Below, in pieces: positions 7,597 through 31,622 of a stretch of 64,000 bases of DNA. The DNA comes from Acidithiobacillus caldus ATCC 51756. GTDB lineage: Bacteria; Pseudomonadota; Gammaproteobacteria; Acidithiobacillales; Acidithiobacillaceae. The stretch covers positions 1,684,714 to 1,748,713 of the forward strand of contig NZ_CP005986.1 of the NCBI RefSeq assembly GCF_000175575.2. Direction: 5' to 3'. The notes beneath the pieces are model-generated. The model worked only from the letters and a program-made list of their open reading frames with translations, did no database searches and was not told the DNA's origin. A program made the translations under genes and the position numbers. Position 1 is the first letter of the stretch. Each line of letters starts with the position of its first letter.

Positions 7597-11434
<3,838 letters not shown>

Positions 11435-11467
11435 CTAGCGCTGCGAGTGAAACCCGAACCAACGGCG

Positions 11468-13498: not shown

Positions 13499-13597
13499 AC
13501 CTCCCTCCTATGGTTCAACCGACTCAGGATACACAGCCCCCACGCGCACCGAAAGGCTTTTGCTCCTCCGCTCGTTCGATCATAGAATGGTGTCCGG

Positions 13598-13674
13598 GCG
13601 CCCATAGCTCAACCGGATAGAGCAACGGCCTTCTAAGCCGTAGGTTGCAGGTTCGATTCCTGCTGGGCGCGCCA
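13598..13674 (+). tRNA. tRNA-Arg (TCT)
   Basis: The plus strand gives a full cloverleaf with acceptor GCGCCCA/TGGGCGC, an encoded CCA and the anticodon loop CTTCTAA, hence anticodon TCT. Its last 45 bases are duplicated exactly at 23627-23671, which makes it the integration site of the element that follows. Confidence 0.96.
13630..13674 (+). repeat. attL: 45-bp direct repeat in the 3' half of tRNA-Arg
   Basis: The repeat runs from the anticodon stem (CTTCTAAGCC) through the CCA end and is identical to 23627-23671. The copy at this end is part of the complete tRNA gene, so integration preserved the tRNA. Confidence 0.95.
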
Positions 13675-14002
13675 ATCAAAACAGGTGGTTGCATGTTTTC
13701 AGACCGTCCCAGTCTTCGCTTATCCGAGATCTTGTCCCCGTTATGTCCCCTTTGGGCGCGAAGTTGACGATCTAGGGATCAGCCGAAACACCACGCCACC
13801 GACAGCGCACCCCCACCACGGTTTGCGCCTGCACCAGCGAACCGATCCCGCGAGGGTGCCGAACGGCAGGAACGCCCGCGAAGGCCCTATGATCGATTTG
13901 CGCGGGTGAGTGGTAGGGTAGCCTATCCCGCGTCCTGATCGTCGCTCCTAGGCCAAAAGAAAGCCCCCAGGACGGGGGCTCGTGCGGGTCGGTGGGCAGA
14001 CG
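13675..14002. other. Left end of the element, no gene seen
   Basis: About 330 bases between attL and the first gene. The open frame on the plus strand has no protein-like features. The only recognisable element is the terminator at 13955-13980 on the minus strand. Confidence 0.5.
13955..13980 (-). terminator. Rho-independent terminator closing the minus-strand gene series
   Basis: Read on the minus strand, AGCCCCC and GGGGGCT form a 7-bp stem around a 5-base loop, followed by TTTCTTTT. It lies just after the stop of the 14003-14311 gene. Confidence 0.8.
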
Positions 14003-14311
14003 CTAGGCGGCAGGCTTTACCGCCTCTGGGTTCTGGAGCTTGGCGCGTATGTCCTCGATGCCGCGCGCAAGGTCCGACACCATAGCCAGATGCTCACCAG
14101 CGGTGAACAGGTTTGACTCCTGCCAGGCGTCGCGGCTTTCGTTGGTGTAGAACATGATTTGCCCGAAGACTCCAACAAAATCCCAGAGGGCATCCACCAG
14201 CGCGCGCAGGTTCGTGTCCATATTCTCCATCTCGGCCTTGGTGTAGCGTTCCGGGTGCTCGGTCATGTCCTTGGCCTTGTAGATGTCCTCGTACAGATGC
14301 GAAAACTTCAT
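14003..14311 (-). CDS. Small protein of unknown function, paralogue of the upstream gene
   Basis: The 102-residue product is acidic and probably helical, with no recognised domain. It aligns along its whole length with the product of 14308-14619: DIYKAKDM matches DIYKFRQM, LWDFVGVFGQIMFY matches LWSFVSALGEIMAY, SRDAWQESNLFTAGEHLAMV matches NRHAWTDGNIHHIGEGLAAV, and LARGIEDIRAKL matches IAIGIEETKSQL. The ATG overlaps the upstream stop by 4 bp (ATGA), so the two are probably translationally coupled. I do not recognise a function. Confidence 0.75.
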   Translation of the reverse strand: MKFSHLYEDIYKAKDMTEHPERYTKAEMENMDTNLRALVDALWDFVGVFGQIMFYTNESRDAWQESNLFTAGEHLAMVSDLARGIEDIRAKLQNPEAVKPAA

Positions 14312-14619
14312 GCTGCACCTCCTTGAACGGCGCGGGAGTGCAAGAGTTGGCTCTTGGTTTCCTCGATGCCGATAGCGATGTCGGCGACGGCGGCAAGGCC
14401 CTCTCCGATGTGGTGGATGTTGCCATCCGTCCAGGCGTGCCGATTGTCGCTGGCGTAGGCCATGATTTCGCCCAGGGCACTGACGAAGGACCACAAGCCC
14501 AGTTGGGTGCTGTCGAGTTGGTCCATTGCGCTGAGGATGTCGTCGCGCGTGTGCTGCTCCCGGTTCTCGGCCATCTGCCGAAACTTGTAGATGTCGCTGC
14601 TAAGTGTGGTGTACGCCAT
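14308..14619 (-). CDS. Small protein of unknown function, first of a tandem pair
   Basis: The 103-residue product (MAYTTLSSDIYKFRQMAE...) is the paralogue of the next gene, sharing the D-I-Y-K, G-x-I-M-x-Y and A-W motifs. It contains no signal peptide or membrane segment. The ATG at 14619 is preferred over one 21 bases upstream. Location at the end of the element, away from replication genes, is where satellites often carry accessory cargo such as anti-phage or packaging-interference genes. That is inference only. Confidence 0.75.
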   Translation of the reverse strand: MAYTTLSSDIYKFRQMAENREQHTRDDILSAMDQLDSTQLGLWSFVSALGEIMAYASDNRHAWTDGNIHHIGEGLAAVADIAIGIEETKSQLLHSRAVQGGAA

Positions 14620-14865
14620 GATATAGCCCTCTAGCTTCAATGCCCGCCAACGGCGACGGGCGGCCAGGGGCTGAAAAGTGCTACAGGGACACCGGGTTTA
14701 TTTCCCGAAGGTATTGTATTCGCCCACCCCCGGCCATCGAGGACACGCCAGCGCAGGACGCTGGGCATAAAAAATCCCGCAAGTCTGACGGGGCGGATTA
14801 CCGCCTGTAGGTGTTTTCAGCACCATACTCGCGAGATTAGGACGGGTTGGTCGTGGCGTCAACCA

Positions 14866-16578
14866 TCAATGCGCCGCCATGTGGATCTGTGCGCCCACGG
14901 AACTCGCTGGTGTGCCGCTGTTGGTTTCGCGATGGGCGTCGATGAGGGCCCGCTTGATGACCTGGTACAGCTCCTGCGGGCTGCGCTGCATGGGTTGCTC
15001 TCCGATGCGCAGGGCCTCGACGATCTTGGCGAGCGTGGAAGGATTGCTTAGGCTCAGATGCGCCGTTGGGCTGCTGATTCCGGCTGCTTTCGCCATCTCG
15101 TCCAGCTTGCGCGTGGTTTGGGCGGATCCGGTGTAGCGTTGCGCAATGGCCGCCAGCGTGTGCAGACCGTATCCCTGGACCGATTGCGCTGCCTTCCGGT
15201 ATGCCTGCGCATTGCTGGCAAACCGCGCATACCGGATGCCGTTGCCTGGGTTCAGATAGCTGGCGTCTCCCTTGTAGGACTCGATGTCCATGGGGTTGTG
15301 TATGCGCTCGTACCAGGGGCCAGAAGCAGCCTTCACCGAGGCCATGTACCGCTTCTCCGCCTCAGTTTCCATCTGGTAGGACTTCTGCGCCCGGCGATAG
15401 AGCCAACTGCCCTTCGGGAGCAGGTCCATCATCTGCTTGTCCATCCAGGCCTGACTTTTTGCTGCCTGAGCGTTCCCGTAGGACCACAGCTTGCCATGGC
15501 GTGCCGCGTTGTAGACCTTGCCGGCCGCTCCCATCTCCGGGCCTTTTCCCGTCGCCACACCCTTGAGCGCGGCATTGATGCGGTTGGCGGCCCAATCCAC
15601 GGAGTTGACGAGCTTGTTGAGCGCGGTGTTCATCAGCGGCGCGCCCTTCGCCAGCGTGCGGCTCAGGTCCGTGCTGAGTTCCACTTCCTTCTGCGAGATC
15701 GTGATCGCCAGCTTCGTCATGTCGCGGCCCGTCTTGGCCGAGAAGTTCATGGCAGCGGCCTGCTTGTGCGCGTTGGCGATGTCGGCGTTGAGGGTGGCCC
15801 AGCTCGTGCGCTTGAGGATGGAAAAATCTTCGGGGCTGAAAATGTGTCGCATCCCCTTCATGTTAATATAGGTATGGTACAAATAACTGGGCACGGTGTC
15901 GGCGATTTTCTTGGCGTTCAGAAGCATCTTGTCGAACCGCTGCATCTGCGTCATGTGCTGCCAGCCTTGGCCGACTGCACGCGAAAACACAGAAATCGCT
16001 GACGTCTGAAACTGCTCCTGCCGCATCTGGGCAAGGGATGCTGCCGGGTTCACCAAAATGCCCCGGAACTGCGTGTCCACAGCTGACACTTGGCCCGGCG
16101 TCATATTCATGATCTTGGCCGTCTTGTAGCGGTCCAGTATGGTGTTGCTCTGGTGCCGGTACAGCTCGACTGCAGCCAACCCTGCCCCAGCTGCAGCACC
16201 ACCGATCAACGGAATGGCCGAGAACAAATCCTTGCCCGCTTGGGCGATGATGCCGAAGGTCTTGCGGCCCGTCTCGCCCAACTGGGACAGTTCCTTGCGT
16301 CCCTGGCTCACGCGCGCCGTGAGTGTTGCCATACGCTGGCCAGCATGGTGCAGTTCGACGGTGAAGTCCTTGGTCGCCCCCGCGCTCTCGCGCATGTGCC
16401 GCTTGAGATGGCCTCCCAGTTTGCTGAAGTGGTCGCGGGCCGCCTCTATGCGCCGGTCCATCTTCTTGAACGGCTCGGGGATGTCCTTGGCGTCCTTGGC
16501 GAACTTCTCGAACCGGGTCAGGAACTCGGAGAACTTCTCGTCCTGAATGTCGATGTCGATGATGCTCCTAAATGCCAT
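14866..16578 (-). CDS. Phage-like virion protein, tape-measure type
   Basis: The 570-residue protein starts with a charged helical region (residues ~10-110) and a short hydrophobic stretch (IPLIGGAAAGAGLAAVEL, ~122-140). A long Ala/Lys/Gln-rich middle follows. Near residues 450-540 a C-terminal block has NPGNGIRYARFAS, YGLHTLAAIAQRYTG, AGISSPTAHLSLSNPSTLAKIVEAL. That block resembles the small domain of phage structural proteins such as PRD1 P5-type and virion muramidase-linked proteins, which read NPGN-R-F-x-S and then a helical repeat. A tape-measure or injection-associated role is inferred. No other tail gene is nearby. Its start overlaps a ribbon-helix-helix gene by 11 bp. Confidence 0.6.
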   Translation of the reverse strand: MAFRSIIDIDIQDEKFSEFLTRFEKFAKDAKDIPEPFKKMDRRIEAARDHFSKLGGHLKRHMRESAGATKDFTVELHHAGQRMATLTARVSQGRKELSQLGETGRKTFGIIAQAGKDLFSAIPLIGGAAAGAGLAAVELYRHQSNTILDRYKTAKIMNMTPGQVSAVDTQFRGILVNPAASLAQMRQEQFQTSAISVFSRAVGQGWQHMTQMQRFDKMLLNAKKIADTVPSYLYHTYINMKGMRHIFSPEDFSILKRTSWATLNADIANAHKQAAAMNFSAKTGRDMTKLAITISQKEVELSTDLSRTLAKGAPLMNTALNKLVNSVDWAANRINAALKGVATGKGPEMGAAGKVYNAARHGKLWSYGNAQAAKSQAWMDKQMMDLLPKGSWLYRRAQKSYQMETEAEKRYMASVKAASGPWYERIHNPMDIESYKGDASYLNPGNGIRYARFASNAQAYRKAAQSVQGYGLHTLAAIAQRYTGSAQTTRKLDEMAKAAGISSPTAHLSLSNPSTLAKIVEALRIGEQPMQRSPQELYQVIKRALIDAHRETNSGTPASSVGAQIHMAAH

Positions 16579-16750
16579 GGCTGGCCTCCCGAATCAGGTT
16601 TTCGATGATGTGGCGCTGGGGCTTCCCCAGGGCTTTGGATAGGGCCTGCAGCCGCTGGCGGGTGGCAGGGGTGACCTCCAAGGAGAGCCACGCCATGCGG
16701 TTCTCCTGCAGGAGCTTTTGACGTCGTTGGTGCTGGTAATGGGCTTGCAC
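16568..16750 (-). CDS. Ribbon-helix-helix (CopG/Arc-like) protein
   Basis: The 60-residue product starts at GTG with GGGAGG eight to nine bases upstream. Its core, WLSLEVTPATRQRLQALSKALGKPQRHIIENLIREA, has the beta strand followed by two helices typical of CopG/Arc DNA-binding proteins. It overlaps the virion-like gene and is divergent from the MuF-like gene 99 bp away, so it could regulate either direction. Confidence 0.7.
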   Translation of the reverse strand: MQAHYQHQRRQKLLQENRMAWLSLEVTPATRQRLQALSKALGKPQRHIIENLIREASHGI

Positions 16751-16848
16751 GGTTGTCCTCCCTTCTTACACTGTAATTTTATTCAGTATTGGCATCGAAG
16801 TCCATTTCTGGTCAGGCTATTACTGTTCGCCACAGCCAGACAGAGATC

Positions 16849-17820
16849 ATGCCGAGAAACCTATCGCCTCGAACCCAAGCCATTCAGGCTGCCAAGGCAA
16901 AAATTGGGGAGATCCTGACCGGCTATGCCAAGTCCAAGGATCCGTCGCAGGCGCCCACAACAAAGGAGCAGGTGCTTCAAGTCATGGCGGGTGTGCTGAT
17001 GACGCCAGAAGCGGCAACTGCCAAGTATCGTCAGCGTTGCGAGAGCTATCTGGAGAGGGTCATCGCCGTACGGGGGATACCTTTTGTCGCGGTGGTGGGG
17101 TCCGGTGAAGGCCAGCCAGTGCATTCGTGCAGCGGAGAATGGGTGGCGGACAATTTTGACCTTTTGTTGCCCGAGATCAGGCAACAGCTAGATGCCTCTG
17201 TTGGCCGATTTTTCTCGTATGCAGAAACGGTTTTTGCTCACTATGAAGCCGACTTCCTTTCCCTACTGGATGATTTCCTGAGCGACCCTCCACGCTTGGC
17301 CAAAGAAATTGGTCCCAGGGTCACACCAGTGAAACGCGAGCTTGGCTACTATACAAAATGGGACCGGCTTTTAGGAGTTCTGACCAGCTTCGCCTTCTTG
17401 AATGAGGTGGAGTACATATTTCATCGGAGAGAAGGGAGATACATCGCTGTTGAGTGGCGATACAGCGAGGCAGATAAACAGATGGATTTTGCCTCCGAAT
17501 CGGACCACCCAACGCGAGATGGCGCGATCTATGCGGTCAGGGATAATTGGGCCATTCAAAAGGGCATGATCGTTCCCGGTAGTGTTGGGTATATTGACGA
17601 CACCGATATCCCTGGTAGGCAACTGGGCTGTATGTGCGACTTGAGATGGATATCATCCCTGGATGAGTTGCCAGAAGACATGCTGACTGACGCCGGCCGA
17701 GAAGCTGTCAGGATATCCAAGGAGCAGTTCCGGCAGTTCATGACCGGCGGGTGGGAGAAGCAAAGCCAATCATGGATTGCGCGCATGGTCGCCAAGATCT
17801 TCGGTAAAAAGCCCGATTAG
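16849..17820 (+). CDS. Putative MuF-like (phage head morphogenesis) protein
   Basis: The only plus-strand gene in the element, 323 residues from the ATG at 16849. The first 230 residues are helical and carry no motif I can name. The C-terminal part reads WRYSEADKQMDFASESDHP, then TRDGAIYAVRDNW, then IPGRQLGCMCDLRW near residues 255-265. This order, with an HPTRDG-like turn and a terminal C-x-C, matches the layout of phage Mu gpF-like minor head domains, which also occur fused to toxins. The assignment is by motif order only. A host-derived or toxin role cannot be excluded. Confidence 0.45.
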   Translation: MPRNLSPRTQAIQAAKAKIGEILTGYAKSKDPSQAPTTKEQVLQVMAGVLMTPEAATAKYRQRCESYLERVIAVRGIPFVAVVGSGEGQPVHSCSGEWVADNFDLLLPEIRQQLDASVGRFFSYAETVFAHYEADFLSLLDDFLSDPPRLAKEIGPRVTPVKRELGYYTKWDRLLGVLTSFAFLNEVEYIFHRREGRYIAVEWRYSEADKQMDFASESDHPTRDGAIYAVRDNWAIQKGMIVPGSVGYIDDTDIPGRQLGCMCDLRWISSLDELPEDMLTDAGREAVRISKEQFRQFMTGGWEKQSQSWIARMVAKIFGKKPD

Positions 17821-17919
17821 GGAGCCTGATTTAGCCCTCTGATGCAATGGGTTGACTGACCAAGCTATGCAAGAGTGGCTTCGTGAGCGGTTTTCCTGTA
17901 ATCGCCTGTAGTTTGCAGG

Positions 17920-18189
17920 TCATTGCCGCCCCCCCGGTCGATACCCGCCGTTCTGTTCTGGCGTCGCTGGTGGGTAGCCCTTGAGCAAGGGATCGTTGGG
18001 GTCCAGCTCGACGGGGCCATCCTTCGTGTAGCGCAGATAGCCTTGTGTCGAGCCGTCAGGACGGATGATCTGCAAGACTATCGTCATCGGTTCCTGCACC
18101 CCCGCTAGCAACATATCCATCTCGGCGCGCTCGTCCGGCGTCAAGAATTGCAGCAATTCGGGCACGTCGTTCTTCGTCTGTGAGTTCAT
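17920..18189 (-). CDS. Small phage protein, terminase-like N-terminal segment
   Basis: The 89-residue product begins at an ATG with GGAG seven bases upstream, inside the preceding gene. Its LLQFLTPDERAEMDMLLAG segment resembles the helical start of some phage large terminase subunits, but no ATPase motif follows, and the rest (LQIIRPDGSTQGYLRYTKDG) looks like a small beta domain. It overlaps the 18056-18433 gene by 134 bp in another frame. Both have good starts, so I keep both. Confidence 0.55.
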   Translation of the reverse strand: MNSQTKNDVPELLQFLTPDERAEMDMLLAGVQEPMTIVLQIIRPDGSTQGYLRYTKDGPVELDPNDPLLKGYPPATPEQNGGYRPGGRQ

Positions 18190-18433
18190 TCGTGATCTCC
18201 ATCTTGGTGGCGGTTTCCGTGGGTATCAGCCGCGACAACAGGCTGGCGAAGGTCTTGGGCTCATCCTTCATGAGCGCCAACAGCCAATCGACACCGCCGC
18301 CACGGTCAAAGGCTTCGAGCAAGGCTTCCTTGAGCGCTGCCGTGGTGCGGTTCACCGCTCCGGGCGGCCTGCCCTTGCCTGCGTTCGGCGGCAGGCGCTT
18401 CCCTGTAACCGGCTGTAATTTACTGCTGCTCAT
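18056..18433 (-). CDS. DUF5681-like small phage protein (small terminase-like)
   Basis: The 125-residue product has the KGRPPGAVNRTTAALKEAL motif followed by a predicted helical segment (GGGVDWLLALMKDEPKTFAS, LLSRLIPTE). This arrangement is typical of DUF5681 proteins and of small terminase subunits in prophages. It lies directly upstream of, and overlapping, the terminase-like 89-residue gene. A DNA-packaging role in the satellite would fit but is not shown. Confidence 0.6.
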   Translation of the reverse strand: MSSSKLQPVTGKRLPPNAGKGRPPGAVNRTTAALKEALLEAFDRGGGVDWLLALMKDEPKTFASLLSRLIPTETATKMEITNELTDEERRARIAAILDAGRARRDGYVASGGAGTDDDSLADHPS

Positions 18434-18445
18434 GCGTCACCTCCT

Positions 18446-18709
18446 TCAGTCGTGCCATCGTTCGCAAATCGGGACCCACTTGGCGCCGTCCTTTACCTCG
18501 GCCAGCATCCTGAAAACTGTCAGCCGCCCTCGCACGCGATGGCCGCGCCAGGTGATTACCGGATGCACGGTACGCGGGTGTTCTCGAAACGCTCGATCTA
18601 TGGCCGTCATCAGATCGCGCCGCAGGGCAGGGCTGAAGCGAAGCAGGGAATCGACGCTAAGGGCCTTTTCTTGGGCTCTGACGGGTTTTTGCATTGCCGG
18701 TGGTGTCAT
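18446..18709 (-). CDS. Hypothetical protein in element
   Basis: The 87-residue basic product (MTPPAMQKPVRAQEKALSVD...) has no recognised domain. Its ATG overlaps the stop of the upstream gene by 4 bp, which supports translation as part of the replication operon. The longer frame to 18775 is less likely. Confidence 0.55.
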   Translation of the reverse strand: MTPPAMQKPVRAQEKALSVDSLLRFSPALRRDLMTAIDRAFREHPRTVHPVITWRGHRVRGRLTVFRMLAEVKDGAKWVPICERWHD

Positions 18710-18927
18710 CGTCCACCCCCAAGTGCAGAACGGCCTAGAACGCCGCGCATGACGGGTGTGCCGCGCCGCTGGCAATCGATCTCATGATCTATGGTCTCAT
18801 CATGCTCGTTCGTCAAAGCATTGGTGCATAGCAAATGCAACGTCTTATAGACGTTTGCATCATTTGCTACCCTAGCACTGGCTGCAAAAGCAGCATTTGC
18901 TACATTTGCTATTTGCTTATTCGACAT
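18706..18927 (-). CDS. Small hypothetical protein in element
   Basis: The 73-residue product starts at the ATG at 18927 with GGAGGGG upstream. It begins MSNKQIANVANAAFAASARV and has no known motif. The local DNA is repetitive (CATTTGCTA-type words between about 18860 and 18915). It overlaps the helicase gene upstream by 11 bp and the next gene by 4 bp. Confidence 0.5.
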   Translation of the reverse strand: MSNKQIANVANAAFAASARVANDANVYKTLHLLCTNALTNEHDETIDHEIDCQRRGTPVMRGVLGRSALGGGR

Positions 18928-20029
18928 CGTCTGCCCCTCCATCAGACAGGGTCACAAAGAATCCGTTTTCTCTCACAAGGCCGCGCTCCATGAGCGAGTT
19001 CATGGCGCGGGTGAAGCTCTGGCCTTTCAAGTCGCTTTCTGCACACGCTGCCCGCCAATCCTTTGCGGATACCTTCGCTTCGTTCGGATCGCGGCCACCT
19101 TCGGCAAGGTTTGCGCGGTGTTCGGCCGTCAGCTTTTGCAGGATCAACAGCGCGGTCTTTTGGTTCTGCTTTAACCCTTTCAGCGCAGAGGCAGGCGGGG
19201 GAGCATCGGCAGGGGCCAGCACGCTCACGGTGAATTGATGGCCGTCAAAATCATCCGGCCACCATTCCGGGGGCATCTCGACGCGCTCAAAAGCAAAGGC
19301 AATCCTCGGCGGCAGGTCGCCTGATCTCTGCTTGGTGCAGGCGACTGTAATGCCCTTGGCGTTCGCCTCGACCAACATGACGGAATCGACAGCGCCACGG
19401 ATCGCCCCGCTACCGCGCAGTTCTTCGGGATTGCTTTTGCTCGGGTGGTGCAGCACCAGGACAGCACAGCCGAGTCTTTCGCGCAGGGTATCAATGGCCT
19501 GTACATAGGCGGTCGCGTCTGCCGTCGAGTTTTCATCTCCGGTCTGCGTCCTGTTCAGGGTATCCAGCACCATCAGATCGGGCCGGTGGTCAGATCGCTC
19601 GATCTCGTCTATCAGGCCGCCCAGATCATCGGGGAGCCTGATTGCGCCATTGCTGATGCGTAGGTTATCGGACTCGCGCAGAGCGTGTTTGTGCCGGATG
19701 TCCCAAGCAAGTGCACGCCGCAGCAGGGCACTCCTGCCCTCACCGGCGACGTACCACACACAGCCTCGGCGTGCTTGGTGCCGGTGCCACTTCGTGCCGG
19801 TGGCGATTGCGGCAGCCAGAGATAGCGCCGCGAAGGTTTTGCCCGATCCAGGCAGCCCCACCATCGCCGCAAAAGTGCCAGCTTCGATCCAGTCGGATAC
19901 TAGCCAGCGCAGCGGCTCCGGTGTCTGGAACAGATCGGCAACCGGCCTGAATCGTGGTTCTGGTGGCGGGACAACTTCATCGGCCTTGATCGGCTCGGGT
20001 CTGGTCAGAGTCTTGATGTCGAACGTCAT
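18917..20029 (-). CDS. RepA-like replicative helicase (RecA-fold AAA ATPase)
   Basis: The 370-residue protein has Walker A (MVGLPGSGKTFAALSLAAA, residues ~55-74), a Walker B-like strand (DLMVLDTLNR), and ELRGSGAIRGAVDSVMLVEA. This matches the AAA_25/RepA-type hexameric helicases of plasmids, prophages and satellites. The C-terminal 90 residues look like a winged-helix segment (LLILQKLTAEHRANLAEGG...). It follows the primase-like gene with a 4-bp overlap, so the two probably form the replication module of the element. Confidence 0.85.
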   Translation of the reverse strand: MTFDIKTLTRPEPIKADEVVPPPEPRFRPVADLFQTPEPLRWLVSDWIEAGTFAAMVGLPGSGKTFAALSLAAAIATGTKWHRHQARRGCVWYVAGEGRSALLRRALAWDIRHKHALRESDNLRISNGAIRLPDDLGGLIDEIERSDHRPDLMVLDTLNRTQTGDENSTADATAYVQAIDTLRERLGCAVLVLHHPSKSNPEELRGSGAIRGAVDSVMLVEANAKGITVACTKQRSGDLPPRIAFAFERVEMPPEWWPDDFDGHQFTVSVLAPADAPPPASALKGLKQNQKTALLILQKLTAEHRANLAEGGRDPNEAKVSAKDWRAACAESDLKGQSFTRAMNSLMERGLVRENGFFVTLSDGGADDVE

Positions 20030-20997
20030 GCCGCCACCTCCCGCCGCAGAGCGGCAACAGCCTTGCGCCGGTCGCCGCCGTGCCAGAGTCGAGCGAACAC
20101 CTCGAAAGCATCAACGCCGTGGGGGTCGTAGAGCGGGTCTGATGTGTGGTGACAGAACACGCGGCCACCCTCGAACTGCACAATGCCAGGAATCCCAGAA
20201 TGTGAGCTTGGGCTTAACCACTTCTTCCCGCGCCGCCGGTAGCCAGCCTGCTCAAGTAGCTGGGCAATATCCGCCTGCTCGTTGAACGACTGGATAACGC
20301 TGTTGCCGTTATACTCGCGCGGATTTACTCGCTGGCGCTTGGCCTCAGCCTGCCGCCGTTCGTCGTCCTCGATGGCCTGTACTGCCTCGGCTAGTCGATC
20401 AGCGCGTAGCCATTCGCCGTAGACGTTGGCGTGCATGGTGTATTCACCCTCGCGCCCAGGTGAAACGCATGGCAGGAAGAACAATCGCGCAGCGTGAAAA
20501 CAGGACGTATCGACTACCCCTGCAAATGTCTCCAGAGAAGCCGTTAACAGCCCGTAGGCGCGCTTTACGTTGTGCGGTGGTAGTACCCCATCCAAAGGGA
20601 ACAGAACGCGGTATCGTGGCGTTTTAGGCCGGTTGCTGAACGTGCTCCATAAAGCAAAGCTCAAGCCGGTTTCTGCCAAGTATTCGTCGGCATCATCAAC
20701 CGGCATCGGTTGGGGTCCGTCGCCGTGCTGCTCGATGTCCAACACCATCGCCGTGAGCCCTGTTACATGCTCGTTCTTAGCGTAAGCCGTCGAGAATGTC
20801 GCCGGAACGATGGCCCGTGACTGCTTCTTGTCGGCTACGATAACTGGCGCTTGGAGCTTCGAGACAAACTCCGGCCACGGCATCGAGTATTCCTTGATGC
20901 GGTGGGCGAGGGCATTGCGGCAGACACCGAACCGAAAAGGTTTTGCCCATGCCTGGCTATCTTCTGGAGTGTCGGGATCGGGGATGATTTCAATCAT
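20026..20997 (-). CDS. Primase-like replication protein
   Basis: The 323-residue product from the ATG at 20997 contains TAMVLDIEQHGDGPQPMPVD (a D-x-E pair) and TFSNRPKTPRYRVLFPLDG, followed by SCFHAARLFFLPC. This order (D-x-E, then an R-x-x-F/L-P strand, then a His-containing motif) is that of archaeo-eukaryotic primase-polymerase proteins of mobile elements. The C-terminal 100 residues carry a zinc-poor, DNA-binding-like segment (WLSPSSHSGIPGIVQFEGGR, VFCHHTSDPL). It overlaps the helicase gene by 4 bp. Confidence 0.7.
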   Translation of the reverse strand: MIEIIPDPDTPEDSQAWAKPFRFGVCRNALAHRIKEYSMPWPEFVSKLQAPVIVADKKQSRAIVPATFSTAYAKNEHVTGLTAMVLDIEQHGDGPQPMPVDDADEYLAETGLSFALWSTFSNRPKTPRYRVLFPLDGVLPPHNVKRAYGLLTASLETFAGVVDTSCFHAARLFFLPCVSPGREGEYTMHANVYGEWLRADRLAEAVQAIEDDERRQAEAKRQRVNPREYNGNSVIQSFNEQADIAQLLEQAGYRRRGKKWLSPSSHSGIPGIVQFEGGRVFCHHTSDPLYDPHGVDAFEVFARLWHGGDRRKAVAALRREVAA

Positions 20998-21076
20998 GGC
21001 CGTGCACCTCGCTTCATGCGCCGCATCGTCAATAGCATGCGTGCTAGGTTGCGCTGAATCTGCCGGACCGTGGCGT

Positions 21077-21301
21077 TCAGATCTGGGGCCATTCGACACC
21101 TCCCAATCTTTCAAGGTCAGACGCTATCCGCGCCAGCAATAGGCCAGCAGCCTTGCGGCCATCGAGGGGCAAATCAGCTAGATCGTGCAGATGTTTCGAT
21201 GCGTGCAGCAGATGGTGCAAGGCTTTGAATCCTTGCGGGAATATGCGATTATTTAGCTGTTCGTTACGGTCGTTGCTCTCGCGGGTGGCGGCCTTTTTCA
21301 T
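21077..21301 (-). CDS. Small hypothetical protein
   Basis: The 74-residue product is rich in His and Leu (ALHHLLHASKHLHDLADL) and has no known domain. Its ATG overlaps the alpA-like stop by 4 bp, which argues that it is a translated member of the early operon. Confidence 0.5.
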   Translation of the reverse strand: MKKAATRESNDRNEQLNNRIFPQGFKALHHLLHASKHLHDLADLPLDGRKAAGLLLARIASDLERLGGVEWPQI

Positions 21302-21492
21302 GACTGTCCCTCCGCGATCACGTTCTCGTCAATCCACTTCTGCACATCGGCAGTTTTCCAGACGGTGCGGCTGGTGCCCTTGATTCGATAAGGCTGAGGG
21401 AATCTCCCCATTTTGGCGAGGGCGTAAATGGAACTGCGTGACAAGGTTGTCAGGCGCTTTACTTCTGCAAGATCAATAATGGTTGGTTGCAT
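21298..21492 (-). CDS. AlpA-family excisionase/transcriptional regulator
   Basis: The 64-residue protein is a small winged-helix MerR-like DNA-binding protein. It reads LAEVKRLTTLSRSSIYALAK, then GRFPQPYRIKGTSRTVWKTA, then DVQKWIDENV. AlpA-like proteins act as excisionase or integrase activators in P4-like elements. It heads the gene series leading to the replication module, with a 116-bp gap upstream that could hold the promoter. Confidence 0.88.
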   Translation of the reverse strand: MQPTIIDLAEVKRLTTLSRSSIYALAKMGRFPQPYRIKGTSRTVWKTADVQKWIDENVIAEGQS

Positions 21493-21608
21493 CGTAGGGA
21501 CTCCGTTGCTAGTGAACGGTCCCTATTAAATGCCTACAGAGTCCCTACTCCTTGGCGAGTTTTAGGCGCTTTCTTCTAAAACTTGACAACTGGCAAGTTA
21601 TAAACGAT

Positions 21609-22166
21609 TTAGCCGGAAACTTGCCACCCAATCCGAAAAGATTTCAGCAGCTCGGCATCTTCGCTTCCAGGATTTTGTCCAGTAACGATAATGACGATCT
21701 CGCGCAACCGTTGGATGCCAGGACGCTCAAGCCCAGCGCGTCGCCAGTGCCGCCCAAGGAATGTCAGGAAGTGGCGGTTATTGCGCTCGGTGAAGTCAAT
21801 GTTGTGGGGACGCTCTAGCCAGTCGGCATGATCTCTTATGACGCTGAACACGGCATCCAGCACCACGCCGGAACCGACAGGGCTCTCGTCTGGTAGCAGC
21901 CAGGGTGCAAGTGTGAGTGATTTTCCTGTCATCGGATCGTGGATGGCTAGCCCGCCAAGATTATGTTCCAGCACTTCGCGCGTTCTGGGGTCGGACAATA
22001 CCCTCAGAGCGTTGCAGAGCACCGCCGCATCTTGCTCGTTCTTGCTTTGCGTCTTTTGCTGTCCCTTGTGCAGATAGTCGATGTACGCACCCAGAACAGC
22101 GTTACTCTCCCGCACCCCCAGAGCCAGCCATCGAGGATCCTGTTTGATATCCTCCAGCGGCCTCAC
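21609..22166 (-). CDS. Hypothetical protein coupled to integrase
   Basis: The 185-residue product starts within the last bases of the integrase gene (4-bp overlap). It is soluble, with no signal peptide. Segments such as IDFTERNNRHFLTFLGRHWR and QRLREIVIIVTG are conserved-looking, but I do not recognise a family. It could be an integrase partner or a cargo gene. Confidence 0.65.
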   Translation of the reverse strand: MRPLEDIKQDPRWLALGVRESNAVLGAYIDYLHKGQQKTQSKNEQDAAVLCNALRVLSDPRTREVLEHNLGGLAIHDPMTGKSLTLAPWLLPDESPVGSGVVLDAVFSVIRDHADWLERPHNIDFTERNNRHFLTFLGRHWRRAGLERPGIQRLREIVIIVTGQNPGSEDAELLKSFRIGWQVSG

Positions 22167-23482
22167 GATGCCGCCCCGTGCAGGGATACCACGTTCCCGG
22201 CTTGCAGCCCGTCGAGATACGCTTTCCAGGTCATCAACGCTTGGCGCTTCTCGTCGAGGTAATGGTGCCGGTCGTAGTGACGGGCCTGAACACCACCAAG
22301 CTCATGGCTCAAGATTTGGGCCCGGATGTCTTTCGCTACTCCCAGGCGAGCAAGCTCCGTCTCGCAGGTCCGGCGAACGTCGCGCAGTTGGTACTTCCCG
22401 CCGCTGATCTCATGGATCGTCTTGCTCAAGGTGGTCACGTGGGGGATGGTCTTGCCGTCGCTGGAGAATACGCTTGGCGCGTTTGCGTTGATCTCCAGCA
22501 ACTCGGTCACGATCCCGGTCACCGGTTCCAACGGCAGGACGTGCAGACGGGGATGCTGCCGCCGTCCCTTGCCATCGCGCAGGGTGATCGTGCCGCGCTC
22601 GATATCCACGTCCTCGGCCCTTACCCGCACCAATTGCGTGGGGCGTTGCCCTCCGAGATAGATCCCCACAAGCAATGCCCTGGCGGCCATGCTATCGCTT
22701 TCGTGAAGATGCTCCAGCAGGTGCCGAAGCTCTGCCGGGGTAAGGACGCGATCGCCCGGCTTGCTCAACGCCGAGTAGGTCGGGAGCACGGCCACCGGGT
22801 TGGTGCTCACTTTGAACAGTCGAAAGGCTGGCGGGATGGTGCTATCGAACTCGCTCTTGGCCGCCAAGTTGTAGGCGCTGTGCAGGGCTGCTCGCGTCTT
22901 GCCGAGGGCGCGGGTGTAGCCCTTGTCCTGTAGCCGGTCGAAGATTGCCCGCAGGTCTTTGGGGGTGATCTCGTTGGCGCGAGTCTGCGCCAGATCGGGA
23001 TAGGGCTCGACGATGTGCAGACGGAAAATGCTCGCCACGTCTTTCCAGGATGGCTTGCTACGGTCACGGAGATAATCGGCATAGATAGACAGCAGCGCAG
23101 CCAACGAACCAGCCTCCTGGCGCTCCTGTTCCTCTGCCTGCCGCCGAAGTTCTGCCGCCGCTGCTCTCTGTTCGGCCTCCAGGTGCAGGCGAATGTCCTT
23201 GACGCCGGAGCGGTAGATCAAGGATAGCTGCTCTGCTCGGTCTCTGGCCTGCTCTAGCGTCATGCCGCCTTCACCCGTGGGAGAGTAGGCCCCCAGGGCA
23301 AGATCGTCGCGCTTGCCGTCGCTGTCGGTGTAGCGAAAAAAGAACCTGATCGTGCCAGATACCTGAGCGCGGATGCGTAGCAGGCCAGCACCGCGACGCC
23401 CCTCGGTGGCGTAGATCGCGTCCTTGCCCTCTTTGGCCGCCTTGCGCGGGAGTGCTTCAAGCTGCTTGACCGTGAGTTTCAT
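22163..23482 (-). CDS. Tyrosine integrase of the tRNA-Arg element
   Basis: The 439-residue integrase should recombine the 45-bp att sites at the ends of the element. It starts MKLTVKQLEALPRKAAKEGK and has an N-terminal arm-binding region. A SAM-like core-binding domain spans residues ~120-210. In the catalytic domain the first Arg is in YLGGQRPTQL, the box II Arg is in QLRDVRRTCETEL (the usual H-x-x-R His is not evident), and ILSHELGG and the Tyr in ARHYDRHHYLDE follow. It is 145 bp from attR, the standard arrangement. Confidence 0.93.
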   Translation of the reverse strand: MKLTVKQLEALPRKAAKEGKDAIYATEGRRGAGLLRIRAQVSGTIRFFFRYTDSDGKRDDLALGAYSPTGEGGMTLEQARDRAEQLSLIYRSGVKDIRLHLEAEQRAAAAELRRQAEEQERQEAGSLAALLSIYADYLRDRSKPSWKDVASIFRLHIVEPYPDLAQTRANEITPKDLRAIFDRLQDKGYTRALGKTRAALHSAYNLAAKSEFDSTIPPAFRLFKVSTNPVAVLPTYSALSKPGDRVLTPAELRHLLEHLHESDSMAARALLVGIYLGGQRPTQLVRVRAEDVDIERGTITLRDGKGRRQHPRLHVLPLEPVTGIVTELLEINANAPSVFSSDGKTIPHVTTLSKTIHEISGGKYQLRDVRRTCETELARLGVAKDIRAQILSHELGGVQARHYDRHHYLDEKRQALMTWKAYLDGLQAGNVVSLHGAAS

Positions 23483-23626
23483 ATCCTGTCCCCGTTCTGT
23501 CCCCATTTATCGGCGGCTGGCGATGGAATCCTTCGGACATCTTAGGACAGAGTATATGCGGTAGATCATCATGTTACAAGACTTTCGGGGATGGCAACGG
23601 ATTTTCTCGGACGTGAAAGTATCAGA

Positions 23627-23671
23627 CTTCTAAGCCGTAGGTTGCAGGTTCGATTCCTGCTGGGCGCGCCA
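23627..23671 (+). repeat. attR: 45-bp duplicate of the tRNA-Arg 3' end
   Basis: Identical over 45 bases to 13630-13674. The bases to its left (ATCAGA) differ from the tRNA anticodon-stem sequence, so only the 3' part of the tRNA was duplicated. It marks the right boundary of the element. Confidence 0.95.
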
Positions 23672-23778
23672 GTAAAATCAAGGCGATAGGCGATTGCCTG
23701 GGGCGTTTTTCTTTGCTGGATTGATTTTCCGCGACACCGGCGCGACCCTGCGCGCAGAGCGATCCGCTCTTTAGAACG

Positions 23779-24094
23779 CGCGTCTGGCAGACGGATAAGG
23801 AAGCGGGGTTACCCCCAGCCGGTCCAAACCTTTCGCACCAAGGCTGAAGCCAAGGCATGGGCCCGTTCCGTCGAGGGCGGGAGTTCGGGACTACCTGCGA
23901 GGCGACCCACCTGTCTTTTGCGAGGGCCTGCATGAGGGGAGGCAGTATGGGACCTGCGCTTTCATGACCTGCGCCACGGGGCAATGAGCAGCTTGTTCGA
24001 GTGTGGCCTAAATCCCATGCAGGTGGCCGCCATCATGGGACACAAGACCTTGCCGATGTTGAATCGCTATACTCATCTTGGAGCCGCAGCTTAG
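23779..24094 (+). pseudogene. Remnant of a second tyrosine integrase
   Basis: Two separated parts can be translated on the plus strand. The first gives GYPQPVQTF then RTKAEAKAWARSVEGG, typical of the N-terminal arm domain of phage integrases. The second gives [13 protein letters not shown] then [13 protein letters not shown] and [11 protein letters not shown] before a stop, the box II to Tyr end of the catalytic domain. The middle is deleted. The fragment begins about 110 bp beyond attR, so a different element probably used the same tRNA-Arg earlier. Confidence 0.8.
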
Positions 24095-24329
24095 GGGAAA
24101 AGACTAGGGTGCCGATCGTCGGCCCTACTCTGAATGGCGTGACGGTTACGATCGGCTCAATGATTCTTGTTCTGGCAGCCTTGAAGAGGCAATGCACGAG
24201 CACGTTGAGGCAAGGAGATGTCCGATGGAAGAAGAGCAAAAGTATTGGTTTCCAGCTAAACGCTATGGGTGGGGATGGGGCTTGCCGATCACTTGGCAAG
24301 GGTGGCTGACCCTCGTAGTCTTCATTCTA

Positions 24330-25436
24330 TTAACCAGGCCCCTAAATATCTAACATCGCGTAGCGTGCTGCGGGATGGTGGAAATAGCGCGCGACTTTCT
24401 CGGGCAGTTGGCGTAGCCCGTTCATGAAAGTGGTTGCCTTCTCCAGCAAGCTTTGGGTATCTGTGCTCATGGGGCCCGTACGCAGAGCGGTTTTGAAATC
24501 GCGATTGAGATACTCGTCGGGGTTGGACTCTGGCGCATAGGGCGGCAGAAATACGAGCTCAATGCGGTCCTGTTTGTCGGCCAGCCACGCGCTTACCACC
24601 TTGGCGTGATGTACCCGCAGGTTGTCCACTACCAGGAAGACCTTCTGCGGCGCGCCGGTGATCAGCTTTTCCAGAAAGGCGATAAAACGCTCCGCATGGA
24701 TGCTGCCCTCCACGATCTCGAAGGCGATCTCTCCGCGCGGGGAAATTGCCGAAATCATCGACAGGGTGGTCCAGCGTGCCGGATGCTCGAGGATGGGGGT
24801 CTGCCCCTTGGGGGCATATCCCCGGACCCAGTGGGCATCCTCTTTGACGGCGGTTTCGTCGCCCCAGTAAATGACCGCACCTTCCTGCAGGGCACGCGCC
24901 CGAAGCCTGGGGTACTCCACCTCCAGCCACTGCCGTACAGCTTCCGGGTTCTGTTCCAGCGCCCGTTTGACCGGACGTTGGGGAGTAAACCCCCAGCGCT
25001 TGAGATATTTGCCCACCAATCGCACCTGCAAATCGATCCCGAAACGCTCCCGAATCAGTTGCCGGATGGCAGGCCGCGTCCAGAGCGCAAAAGGCATCTG
25101 CAACTGCCGTGGATCCTTTTGCACGATCTGGTCCCGAATCCAAGCCTCTGCCGCCAGAGTCAATTTACGGCAAGCCCCAACCGGCCGCCCCCGCGGGCGT
25201 TCCTCAAGGCTCTCGGTTCCTTCTCGTTTGGCTCGCGCCAACCAACCGCGAATCGTCGAGGGATGGGCACCAGACACCTTGGCCAAGTCCTCTACTCGCA
25301 TGCCCGACTGTTGGCGCAACCGCACCACCATCTGCCGCAGTATGTTGCGCCCATCCACCGTCAATTTACGCACATCTACCCGCTTCATGACCCTCAGCAT
25401 AGCAAACTACTATCGGATATTTAAGGGCCTGGTTAA
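24330..25436 (-). mobile_element. IS630-family insertion sequence, complete
   Basis: The 1107-bp element has near-perfect terminal inverted repeats (TTAACCAGGCCC(C/T)TAAATATC, one mismatch) and is flanked by TA on both sides. TA is the target duplication of IS630/mariner elements. It carries one transposase gene and splits a small membrane protein gene. Confidence 0.95.
24342..25388 (-). CDS. IS630-family transposase
   Basis: The 348-residue protein has an N-terminal helix-turn-helix (MRVEDLAKVSGAHPSTIRGW, residues ~30-50). The winged-helix linker contains the RPRGRPVG motif. The DDE domain includes YWGDETAVKEDAHWVRGY, VFLVVDNLRVHHAKVV and FLPPYAPESNPDEYLNRDFK. All three acidic positions (D, D, E) are present, so the enzyme looks functional. 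The ATG at 25388 is preferred over 25400. Confidence 0.95.
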   Translation of the reverse strand: MKRVDVRKLTVDGRNILRQMVVRLRQQSGMRVEDLAKVSGAHPSTIRGWLARAKREGTESLEERPRGRPVGACRKLTLAAEAWIRDQIVQKDPRQLQMPFALWTRPAIRQLIRERFGIDLQVRLVGKYLKRWGFTPQRPVKRALEQNPEAVRQWLEVEYPRLRARALQEGAVIYWGDETAVKEDAHWVRGYAPKGQTPILEHPARWTTLSMISAISPRGEIAFEIVEGSIHAERFIAFLEKLITGAPQKVFLVVDNLRVHHAKVVSAWLADKQDRIELVFLPPYAPESNPDEYLNRDFKTALRTGPMSTDTQSLLEKATTFMNGLRQLPEKVARYFHHPAARYAMLDI

Positions 25437-27081: not shown

Positions 27082-28058
27082 CATGCCTGTTAACCTTTCT
27101 CAGCAACAAGCCGGACCGGGATATGTTCCATACAGGCATTGAGCAACCTCAGGGGCAGTTCTGGCTCCCAGAAACGGCGATTGAAGCGATAGACAAACTC
27201 GTTCAGATATTCCTGCAGATATTTGCCGGATACCCCATGGAATGTGCCCAAAAGAAAGGCCTTGAGGTTACCAATGGCGATGTGTACCCACGGCAACCAC
27301 TCGTCCACCTGATGCGGTTTGGTCACGCGCCCCTCATGCTCTTGGCTCTCTCCGAGAACTCGCAGCGCTATTAAGCCGTCGGTGCGGGTAGGTTGCTTGG
27401 GGCGCAAGCGTCGCCGCGCGAATTCGCGAATCCGGTCGGCAGAGACCGAAGGCGTCGTCTCGATGGCAATAAAGCCCGCCTTCTTGCCCCGGTTTTCCAC
27501 GGCAACCAAGATCGGTGTTTTGCCTTCGGCCCCTCGACCGCTCTTCCCCCCAGACCGGCGTCCACCGACAAAGGCATCGTCCAACTCTACCAGCCCTTCC
27601 AAGCGATACAGACTGTCGCGATCGCCCATGGCGCGGCGCATGCGGCGCAACATCCGGTGAGCCGTGATCCAGGAGACCCCAATCTGCTTCGACAGCCGCA
27701 GGGCGGACAATCCGCCCTTGTCGCTCGCCATCAAATAGATGGCCAGGAACCATTGCACCAGGGGCACATTGGACGAATGAAAAATTGTGCCGGCCGTCAC
27801 CGAGGTCTGATGGCGACAGTGCCCGCACTGAAAGAGTTTTCGTCCGGCGATCCAGTATCCGCGGTCATGGCCGCATTTCGGACATCGAAACCCCTCGGGC
27901 CAGCGCTTTTGTTTCAGCGCCTCCAAGCAGGCCTCTTCCGTGCCAAACCGCGCTTGCCACTGCAAGAGGTTCGTCGCTTCAGCTTTCATCTCAGACCTCC
28001 TTTCTCTATGCCTCACAGAGAGTTAGAGCTTGATTGCTGAGAATGATTCAGAGGCATG
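27082..28058 (-). mobile_element. IS1595-family insertion sequence, copy 1
   Basis: The 977-bp element has imperfect terminal repeats starting CATGCCT and sharing TCTCAGCAA further in. Both flanks carry the 8-bp duplication TTCTAAAA (27074-27081 and 28059-28066). It has the same length and encodes the same protein as 30646-31622 and lies in the same orientation. Confidence 0.95.
27090..27989 (-). CDS. IS1595-family transposase, copy 1
   Basis: The 299-residue protein begins MKAEATNLLQWQARFGTEEA after a GGAGGT site. It has the IS1595-type N-terminal zinc ribbon (CPKCGHDRGYW...CGHCRHQ), HTH-like SKQIGVSWITAHRMLRRMR and a DDE core starting LVELDDAFVGGRR. The later catalytic region includes VHIAIGNLKAFLLGTFHGVS (D/N position) and the EYLNEFVYRFNRR motif. 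It appears intact. Confidence 0.93.
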   Translation of the reverse strand: MKAEATNLLQWQARFGTEEACLEALKQKRWPEGFRCPKCGHDRGYWIAGRKLFQCGHCRHQTSVTAGTIFHSSNVPLVQWFLAIYLMASDKGGLSALRLSKQIGVSWITAHRMLRRMRRAMGDRDSLYRLEGLVELDDAFVGGRRSGGKSGRGAEGKTPILVAVENRGKKAGFIAIETTPSVSADRIREFARRRLRPKQPTRTDGLIALRVLGESQEHEGRVTKPHQVDEWLPWVHIAIGNLKAFLLGTFHGVSGKYLQEYLNEFVYRFNRRFWEPELPLRLLNACMEHIPVRLVAEKG

Positions 28059-30645: not shown

Positions 30646-31622
30646 CATGCCTGTTAACCTTTCTCAGCAACAAGCCGGACCGGGATATGTTCCATACAGG
30701 CATTGAGCAACCTCAGGGGCAGTTCTGGCTCCCAGAAACGGCGATTGAAGCGATAGACAAACTCGTTCAGATATTCCTGCAGATATTTGCCGGATACCCC
30801 ATGGAATGTGCCCAAAAGAAAGGCCTTGAGGTTACCAATGGCGATGTGTACCCACGGCAACCACTCGTCCACCTGATGCGGTTTGGTCACGCGCCCCTCA
30901 TGCTCTTGGCTCTCTCCGAGAACTCGCAGCGCTATTAAGCCGTCGGTGCGGGTAGGTTGCTTGGGGCGCAAGCGTCGCCGCGCGAATTCGCGAATCCGGT
31001 CGGCAGAGACCGAAGGCGTCGTCTCGATGGCAATAAAGCCCGCCTTCTTGCCCCGGTTTTCCACGGCAACCAAGATCGGTGTTTTGCCTTCGGCCCCTCG
31101 ACCGCTCTTCCCCCCAGACCGGCGTCCACCGACAAAGGCATCGTCCAACTCTACCAGCCCTTCCAAGCGATACAGACTGTCGCGATCGCCCATGGCGCGG
31201 CGCATGCGGCGCAACATCCGGTGAGCCGTGATCCAGGAGACCCCAATCTGCTTCGACAGCCGCAGGGCGGACAATCCGCCCTTGTCGCTCGCCATCAAAT
31301 AGATGGCCAGGAACCATTGCACCAGGGGCACATTGGACGAATGAAAAATTGTGCCGGCCGTCACCGAGGTCTGATGGCGACAGTGCCCGCACTGAAAGAG
31401 TTTTCGTCCGGCGATCCAGTATCCGCGGTCATGGCCGCATTTCGGACATCGAAACCCCTCGGGCCAGCGCTTTTGTTTCAGCGCCTCCAAGCAGGCCTCT
31501 TCCGTGCCAAACCGCGCTTGCCACTGCAAGAGGTTCGTCGCTTCAGCTTTCATCTCAGACCTCCTTTCTCTATGCCTCACAGAGAGTTAGAGCTTGATTG
31601 CTGAGAATGATTCAGAGGCATG
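30646..31622 (-). mobile_element. IS1595-family insertion sequence, copy 2
   Basis: A 977-bp copy with the same ends as 27082-28058 and the same encoded protein, flanked by the 8-bp duplication TCAATATT (30638-30645 and 31623-31630). Different duplications at the two copies show independent insertions. Confidence 0.95.
30654..31553 (-). CDS. IS1595-family transposase, copy 2
   Basis: The 299-residue product is identical in sequence to that of copy 1, with the zinc ribbon CPKCG...CGHCR, the LELDD-type catalytic start (LVELDDAFVGG) and the NEFVYRFNRR end. The identity points to a recent insertion or ongoing activity. Confidence 0.93.
   Translation of the reverse strand: MKAEATNLLQWQARFGTEEACLEALKQKRWPEGFRCPKCGHDRGYWIAGRKLFQCGHCRHQTSVTAGTIFHSSNVPLVQWFLAIYLMASDKGGLSALRLSKQIGVSWITAHRMLRRMRRAMGDRDSLYRLEGLVELDDAFVGGRRSGGKSGRGAEGKTPILVAVENRGKKAGFIAIETTPSVSADRIREFARRRLRPKQPTRTDGLIALRVLGESQEHEGRVTKPHQVDEWLPWVHIAIGNLKAFLLGTFHGVSGKYLQEYLNEFVYRFNRRFWEPELPLRLLNACMEHIPVRLVAEKG

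Follow-up and report, generated by a model that had tools for sequence, protein, structure and literature searches.

A paralogous gene pair behind a putative antisense-attenuator leader in an integrated element of Acidithiobacillus caldus

In the satellite phage P4, termination is brought about by the CI RNA, which pairs with the leader segments seqA and seqC (PMC4825925). The c4 RNA of phages P1 and P7, ~77 nt long and structured, is processed by RNase P; it prevents superinfection and controls an antirepressor, and its variable loops set its specificity (PMC5320573; PMC12197685). The authors of the work on IsrK compared the IsrK leader to P4 seqA and CI (PMC4825925). A further RNA, sRNA-Xcc1 (Rfam: RF02221), was mapped as a discrete RNA of ~88 nt in Xanthomonas (PMC2996969) and has been tied to virulence and predicted host targets (PMC2996969; PMC12189769; PMC8780938); 15 RF02221 copies were reported for one Aeromonas salmonicida genome (PMC8780938). 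Xcc1 has also been described upstream of symE in Xanthomonas integron cassettes, where a divergent regulatory mechanism was suggested (PMC12444791); this is the only report found that has symE together with Xcc1. For Xylella De Donno, c4, IsrK and Xcc1 were listed near one another, with no common mechanism given in the accessible part of the paper (PMC12189769). PMC11932112 names sRNA-Xcc1, and in the accessible part of PMC8876359 it occurs in the reference list only. All these papers were available in part, and statements on them refer to those parts. In the literature covered, with most subscription papers outside that coverage, no link of sRNA-Xcc1 to P4 CI- or c4-type immunity was found.

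The integrated element and its terminal gene pair

The window, the whole stretch of 64,000 nt from A. caldus ATCC 51756 that was analysed, carries an element of ~10 kb integrated in a tRNA-Arg gene and bounded by a 63-nt direct repeat, the two copies of which are 89% identical. An integrase and att repeats at a tRNA, by which an integrated satellite-like element is recognised, are both present. The main features are:

13598-13674, plus strand: tRNA-Arg(TCT), the integration target
13621-13683: att direct repeat, tRNA side, covering the 3' part of tRNA-Arg(TCT)
13884-14862: exchangeable cassette, 96.8% identity over 980 nt to locus L010 in a genome of another genus (G021)
13961-13981, minus strand: intrinsic terminator after the pair
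14003-14311, minus strand: second gene of the pair (P0001, 102 aa), an ORF; predicted three-helix protein (pLDDT 87, pTM 0.75)
14308-14619, minus strand: first gene of the pair (P0002, 103 aa), an ORF; predicted three-helix protein (pLDDT 81, pTM 0.66)
18917-21114, minus strand: replication genes, namely an AAA_25 ATPase (18917-20029) and a primase-like gene (20026-21114)
22163-23506, minus strand: integrase of the element (phrog_1, E=4e-40)
23618-23680: att direct repeat, integrase side

The pair forms the last genes of the element at its att end, with the integrase at the opposite end. An earlier note on this DNA had placed two tandem paralogous small genes at the far end of the element, where cargo is carried, and this position holds, as the pair adjoins the att repeat at tRNA-Arg(TCT). 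Both genes lie on the minus strand and overlap by 4 nt (ATGA). BLASTP aligned the first and second protein over 102 residues without gaps, with 36% identity and 61% positives (E=1e-24), which puts the paralogy of these coupled genes of 102 and 103 aa far beyond chance. The two copies have diverged far from each other, and a tree of seven members does not decide whether the first genes are one clade and the second genes another, nor when the duplication took place.

The same note had recognised no family for the two proteins, and none emerged here: searches with the pair against Pfam, PHROGs, NCBIfam and PADLOC profiles and against PDB sequences gave nothing useful. The top scores of the second gene were Pfam DUF1287 (E=0.19) and phrog_26642 (E=0.24), neither of them useful, and that of the first gene was NCBIfam AmpD (E=0.037) with 13.4 bits against a cut-off of 143. 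No SymE match in Pfam was found for either protein. A tblastn search of phage and plasmid collections with the second gene and a search of viral contigs with both genes also returned nothing useful. Prediction of the monomer structures, which had been proposed as a check, yielded three-helix models but no informative structural match. Foldseek at E<=0.001 gave no hit for either model in the viral library and none for the first gene in the PDB, and the rows of VIA-align, up to Z 9.5, were mixed helical bundles of a size class that its own note calls uninformative. Nothing in the predicted proteins thus far points to an activity.

Of the 29 family genomes searched, four matched the pair genes, namely that of the window (G000), G021, G018 and G017. 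A profile search of the order returned the same four among 31 genomes, and in a class sample of 369 genomes only the two that belong to the window's own genus matched. A scan of genome contigs, which detects close relatives only, returned one locus, in Acidithiobacillus sp. KMB_Bin03, with the match at the position of that of G018. Both genes occur together in G000, in G021 and twice in G017, i.e. at four of five loci and in three of four genomes; G018 has a single gene of the pair. The expectation that the pair travels together in other elements is therefore borne out as a rule, not as an absolute, since G018 carries one gene.

Comparison of the elements pointed to a smaller unit of exchange. 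The L010 element of G021 sits at a tRNA-Lys with a 47-nt repeat (L010 positions 2939-2985 and 11400-11446). Apart from the cassette, the sole nucleotide match between window positions 13500-24500 and L010 is 24327-24500, outside the window's element, and among the 13 proteins of the window's element only the ATPase, besides the pair, matches L010, at 38-42%. Likewise, the two 18-kb stretches around the G017 loci L012 and L013 have 1145 nt in common at 92.7% identity and nothing else. The common parts are the leader upstream of the pair and the pair itself, to which G017 adds a third small ORF. On these alignments, leader and pair make up a mobile cassette of ~1 kb that is exchanged between otherwise different elements. 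In the tRNA-Pro element of G017, the tRNA end recurs as a perfect 52-nt copy ~15 kb away, in stretch L079; other ORFs separate the pair from the tRNA there, over a distance of nearly 3 kb. No direct repeats were found inside L012 alone, and a second copy of the tRNA-Ser end was not found in 58 kb around and to the left of that G017 locus.

Several side observations concern these elements. In L010 the ATPase gene of G021 was matched in two parts ~1.1 kb apart (~7750-8845), and it adjoins sequence resembling window 24327-24500; the interruption is probably an insertion sequence. The 570-aa protein encoded at 14866-16578 in the window, between the pair and the integrase, gave a weak phage match, to phrog_7694 of unknown function, over its first residues (E=9e-8). 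Tail-like genes were seen in cassette-bearing elements: a tape measure gene in L012 (14970-16874, E=1e-48), a tape-measure-like gene in L013 (2102-6298, E=2e-20) and a baseplate hub gene in L011 (894-1985, E=2e-19). Cassette-bearing elements thus often have a phage tail-like gene, and are perhaps satellites that bring their own tail part. Two 308-aa ORFs of the window, at 27090-28016 and 30654-31580, look identical and transposase-like by eye.

The position of the pair at the att end, the movement of the cassette between elements and the retention of two paralogs at four of five loci would all suit a module directed against phages or helpers, in which a hetero-oligomer of the paralogs blocks a phage function and the leader keeps the module off until infection. 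The absence of any informative fold and the single gene in G018 speak against such a module, as do the PADLOC defence families, which gave zero matches for the five members of the pair family tested; the pair as a known anti-phage system was rejected on the latter result. The role in anti-phage defence or packaging interference that had been suggested earlier has gained no support so far, from PADLOC or from the generic helical bundles, and we regard it as unlikely.

The leader ahead of the pair

The ~220 nt upstream of the pair form a leader that, among the five leaders compared, is better conserved than the pair proteins. It is also the more interesting part of the cassette. The window leader is 87.2% identical to that of L011 (G018) over 226 nt and ~82% identical to those of L012 and L013. 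Its parts follow in the order promoter-like site, seqA, antiterminator/terminator, RNA with seqB, and gene:

14834-14862, minus strand: promoter-like TTGACG-N17-TAATCT, read from the sequence, 8 of 12 consensus letters
14804-14821, minus strand: seqA, consisting of GCTGAAAA (14814-14821, hairpin loop) and CTACAGG (14804-14810, linker), complementary to seqB
14769-14804, minus strand: putative attenuator, with a GCGG-loop-CCGC antiterminator (14793-14804) overlapping a CCGC...GCGG-T6 terminator (14769-14796)
14654-14735, minus strand: sRNA-Xcc1-like RNA, an RF02221 homolog (cmscan 51.8 bits, E=4e-7)
14670-14687, minus strand: seqB, consisting of CCTGTAG (14681-14687) and TTTTCAGC (14670-14677), in the 3' half of the RNA
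14627-14635, minus strand: candidate seqC at the ribosome-binding site (GCTAGAGGG), 8/9 match to the complement of seqB

A promoter scan of the window leader found none, TTGACG-N17-TAATCT lying below its cut-offs. The RNA scored 1.2 bits under the RF02221 gathering score of 53, which is exceeded by those in L012 (61.5 bits) and L013 (57.3 bits); it is an RF02221 homolog just under the threshold, and curated membership is not claimed. Upstream of this homolog lie three elements, GGTGctgaaaaCACC, GGCGGtaatCCGCC and CCCGtcagacttgCGGG, with T6 shortly after.

The leader shows two features of a P4 CI-type control, an upstream seqA complementary to seqB in the leader RNA and, judged by its letters, a terminator-like sequence (14769-14796) between promoter and gene. 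None of 500 shuffles reached the score of the seqA/seqB match. The candidate seqC is not significant, 146/500 shuffles reaching its score, and none of the five loci with pair genes gave a significant seqC pairing. The switch would therefore act mainly by termination at these loci. Folding of the leader was modestly better than that of shuffles only (z -1.8 and -1.3).

Between the two G017 loci, seqA and seqB differ by a matching double change, CTCAAAA/TTTTGAG in L012 and CTGAAAA/TTTTCAG in L013. In G018, seqA fits its own seqB poorly (46/500 shuffles reach the score), and a decayed copy of the leader thus exists. The G018 seqB (L025 / L011) fits the seqA of the window (11.0) better than its own (8.0). 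Decay of this kind, together with the single gene in G018, is what would be expected if the pair were a decaying or neutral remnant. However, both frames are open in the window, in G021 and in the two G017 copies (G017a, G017b), and the seqA/seqB match has been kept despite divergence, so that we give the remnant very little credence. Blastn of the leader against phage and plasmid collections and a strict 32-base leader pattern run on viral contigs both gave no match.

The earlier reading of the pair was thus sound as regards cargo position at the att end and co-occurrence, but missed the main feature of the locus, its putative RF02221-type antisense attenuator leader.

RF02221 leaders across genomes

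Complementarity was then compared over all 45 RF02221 matches at E<=0.001, many of them under the gathering score, from searches of the order (31 genomes, 6 with a match) and the class (369 genomes, 26 with a match). Sufficient flank was available for 44 of the 45 loci, and 37 were non-redundant (<90% alike); the window leader was tested separately because the G018 leader stood for it in this thinning. At every locus, the reverse complement of the 3' part of each RNA was aligned locally to 130 nt upstream and 60 nt downstream. Among the 37 loci, cognate upstream scores averaged 11.00 vs 6.55 +/- 1.31 and were strictly best at 25, and downstream scores averaged 7.64 vs 5.73 +/- 1.16 and were strictly best at 11; in both cases 0/10000 permutations, which ignore kinship, reached the mean. 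By duplex energy, the cognate was best at only 10/37 loci upstream and 8/37 downstream, the mean again being reached by 0/10000 permutations. When dinucleotide shuffles were used, with at most 2/200 reaching the score, 33 of 44 loci stood out upstream and 11 of 44 downstream.

A second set consisted of 30 loci, the best match of each of 30 genomes from a phylum sample in which 58 of 398 genomes, and none of 14 control genomes, had an RF02221 match. All 30 were <90% alike among themselves and against the first set, and the settings were left unchanged; as best-scoring matches they are no random draw. The upstream mean was 11.78 vs 6.78 +/- 1.51 (strictly best 16/30) and the downstream mean 7.82 vs 5.65 +/- 1.09 (strictly best 11/30), each with 0/10000 permutations and kinship ignored. 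At most 2/200 shuffles reached the score at 22 of these loci upstream and at 8 downstream. Individually, seqA is hence non-significant at 11/44 and 8/30 loci, and seqC, while significant on family average, is individually significant at only 11/44 and 8/30.

Specificity also holds within genomes: when loci of one genome were compared, the cognate seqA/seqB combination was strictly best in 19/24 cases. Four loci of one genome (G170) have TTGACAA, GTGAAAA, CTAGAAA or TTCAAAA as the variable block of seqA; each block has its match in seqB and turns up again just ahead of the start codon. These results bear on the published view of the RNA as a regulator of host genes in trans, by which the neighbouring genes would be incidental. 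The title of Chen et al. 2011 calls sRNA-Xcc1 trans-acting, and host targets have been predicted by computer (PMC2996969; PMC12189769; both as available in part). However, seqB is specific to its own leader in both sets of loci and also when loci of a single genome are compared, and purely trans action appears quite improbable to us.

A strict attenuator pattern (a 4-mer, its complement, the 4-mer again and a T-run) was present in 25/44 leaders vs 0.24 +/- 0.45 in shuffled ones (maximum 2) and in 11/30 new leaders vs 0.19 +/- 0.42; the exact pattern is absent from 19/44 and 19/30. The 4-mer is GCGG in 24 of the 25 leaders of the first set with the pattern. The first GCGG copy stands directly behind seqA and can pair with CCGC as antiterminator, and the second copy can serve in the terminator. 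The seqB-seqA pairing extends into the first GCGG in several alignments, so that CCGC would be freed for the terminator. A looser promoter-like pattern was found in 21/44 leaders vs 1.1 +/- 1.0 shuffled and in 7/30 vs 0.50 +/- 0.66. A tRNA gene lies within the stretch (up to ~3 kb) at only 8/45 RF02221 loci, four of them in the window's family, and a position at the att end is therefore not general for this RNA.

The first downstream ORF, present at 39/45 loci, occupies what we refer to as the slot. Twenty-nine slot proteins were scanned, namely the pair and 27 chosen others, among them the second ORF at L039, with near-duplicates and some doubtful ORFs left out. Pfam assigned SymE to three, Bro-N to one and KilA-N to one. 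Five of the 30 new loci had no first ORF; the 25 first ORFs of the others gave, each in a different protein, Bro-N (3), Rha (2), P22_AR_N (1), KilA-N (1) and SymE (2), i.e. 7/25 of antirepressor type and 2/25 SymE, one of the three Bro-N matches having 22.5 bits, under the Pfam cut-off of 25.6. An RNA core pattern, not scored with the model, was found in eight viral contigs (six distinct loci by eye), and Bro-N or Rha follows at five of the six. Most slot proteins have no family, and many are short. PADLOC returned two families for the 29 slot proteins, PDC-S22, which is the KilA-N protein, and TmtA (E=0.001), the latter for one protein outside the five pair-family members. When profiles of the pair were compared with two groups of small proteins encoded after other RF02221 leaders, no relation emerged, and a single superfamily of slot proteins is therefore not claimed.

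Two further observations concern slot products. Downstream of the RF02221 match at L047 (G078) lies another tandem paralog pair, with 43% identity over 100 residues, which by eye looks unrelated to that of the window. Proteins of ~115-190 aa without a Pfam match, whose kinship was judged by eye, recur behind RF02221 leaders at L088, L097, L104, L105, L114 and L115 in several genomes of the phylum sample.

SymE is a type I toxin family, and the same kind of leader precedes it in other genomes, just as Xcc1 stands upstream of symE in Xanthomonas integron cassettes (PMC12444791, as available in part). This could suggest a type I toxin-antitoxin addiction module, in which the pair would act as toxin and the Xcc1-like RNA as antitoxin, so that the element is stabilised by the cassette. 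No SymE match was found for the pair itself, however, and the RNA is encoded in one transcript with its putative target gene, an arrangement that would fit superinfection immunity better than killing on loss. We consider an addiction module improbable.

Proposed switch and comparison with known systems

The reading that we prefer, and hold to be fairly probable, is that the cassette is silenced by its own antisense RNA and that the pair is expressed on entry into naive cells. Antisense-attenuator control of the pair, as the leader alignments suggest it, is well supported at the sequence level. In this reading, a self-contained ~1-kb cassette occupies the att end of the integrated element and has the pair as its protein products. 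Transcription would start ahead of seqA. As long as the GCGG/CCGC antiterminator forms, the polymerase would read through, an RNA of the sRNA-Xcc1 type would be made within the leader, and both genes would be expressed. Once the RNA has accumulated, seqB would pair with the seqA of later transcripts and occupy the antiterminator arm; the CCGC...GCGG-T6 terminator would then form and expression would stop. In part of the relatives, seqB may also cover the ribosome-binding site (seqC). With later transcripts terminated by the RNA, the pair would be silent in a resident element and briefly expressed on entry into a cell without the RNA. The sequences themselves show that the two genes are paralogs, that the cassette is exchanged, that seqA and seqB match and that the leader has the attenuator pattern; we infer the dynamics of this switch, the processing of the RNA and the role of the proteins. 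The three-helix products stand where some relatives have antirepressors or SymE, and their likeliest role would be that of a factor of establishment or take-over that acts transiently.

A wider reading is a real possibility that we put forward tentatively. RF02221 would stand alongside P4 CI and P1 c4 as an additional class of phage-type immunity RNA and would work as a barcode system, with a seqA/seqB code for each element or cassette. Resident copies would silence an incoming cassette of the same code, other codes in the same cell would be independent, and the pair would join antirepressors and SymE in the slot as a novel class of entry-burst effector. RF02221, which occurs in the 58 genomes of the phylum sample and is linked in print to virulence, would gain a concrete cis mechanism, and copies counted as virulence RNAs, such as the 15 of A. 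salmonicida (PMC8780938, as available in part), may instead mark switches of mobile elements. To find genes that an element may switch on when it enters a cell, a simple rule would be to search directly behind the leader. The pair is one candidate family of such genes, so far only in the window's own family.

As in P4 CI, a single leader has seqA upstream, a terminator that would act prematurely and an RNA that contains seqB, and part of the RF02221 relatives have a downstream seqC as well. In contrast to P4 CI, the genes under control here would not be replication genes but a small pair of paralogs, and the window seqC is not significant. Brief expression on entry followed by silence is proposed by analogy with P4 CI and P1 c4.

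The likeness to c4 of P1 and P7 (RF01695) would consist in a short structured RNA within a longer transcript, variable antisense loops and an antirepressor clientele, whereas many RF02221 leaders differ by an explicit antiterminator/terminator. Membership in c4 was rejected, as the model gave no match at E<=1 in the window stretch or at ten RF02221 loci, and the IsrK family was absent from the Rfam matches of the same sequences. The IsrK / STnc1160 leader of Gifsy-1 is comparable as a prophage leader RNA ahead of orf45 and anrP, the latter an antirepressor gene; unlike the RF02221 leader, IsrK is reported as both messenger and sRNA.

To sRNA-Xcc1 (RF02221) itself the RNA is homologous, with the leaders of L012 and L013 over the gathering score. 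Whereas the published sRNA-Xcc1 is associated with virulence and host targets in trans, the RNA reads here as a cis-operon antisense RNA of mobile elements. By analogy, RF02221 leaders share the logic of c4 and P4 CI and part of their clientele, a likeness in the way of working only.
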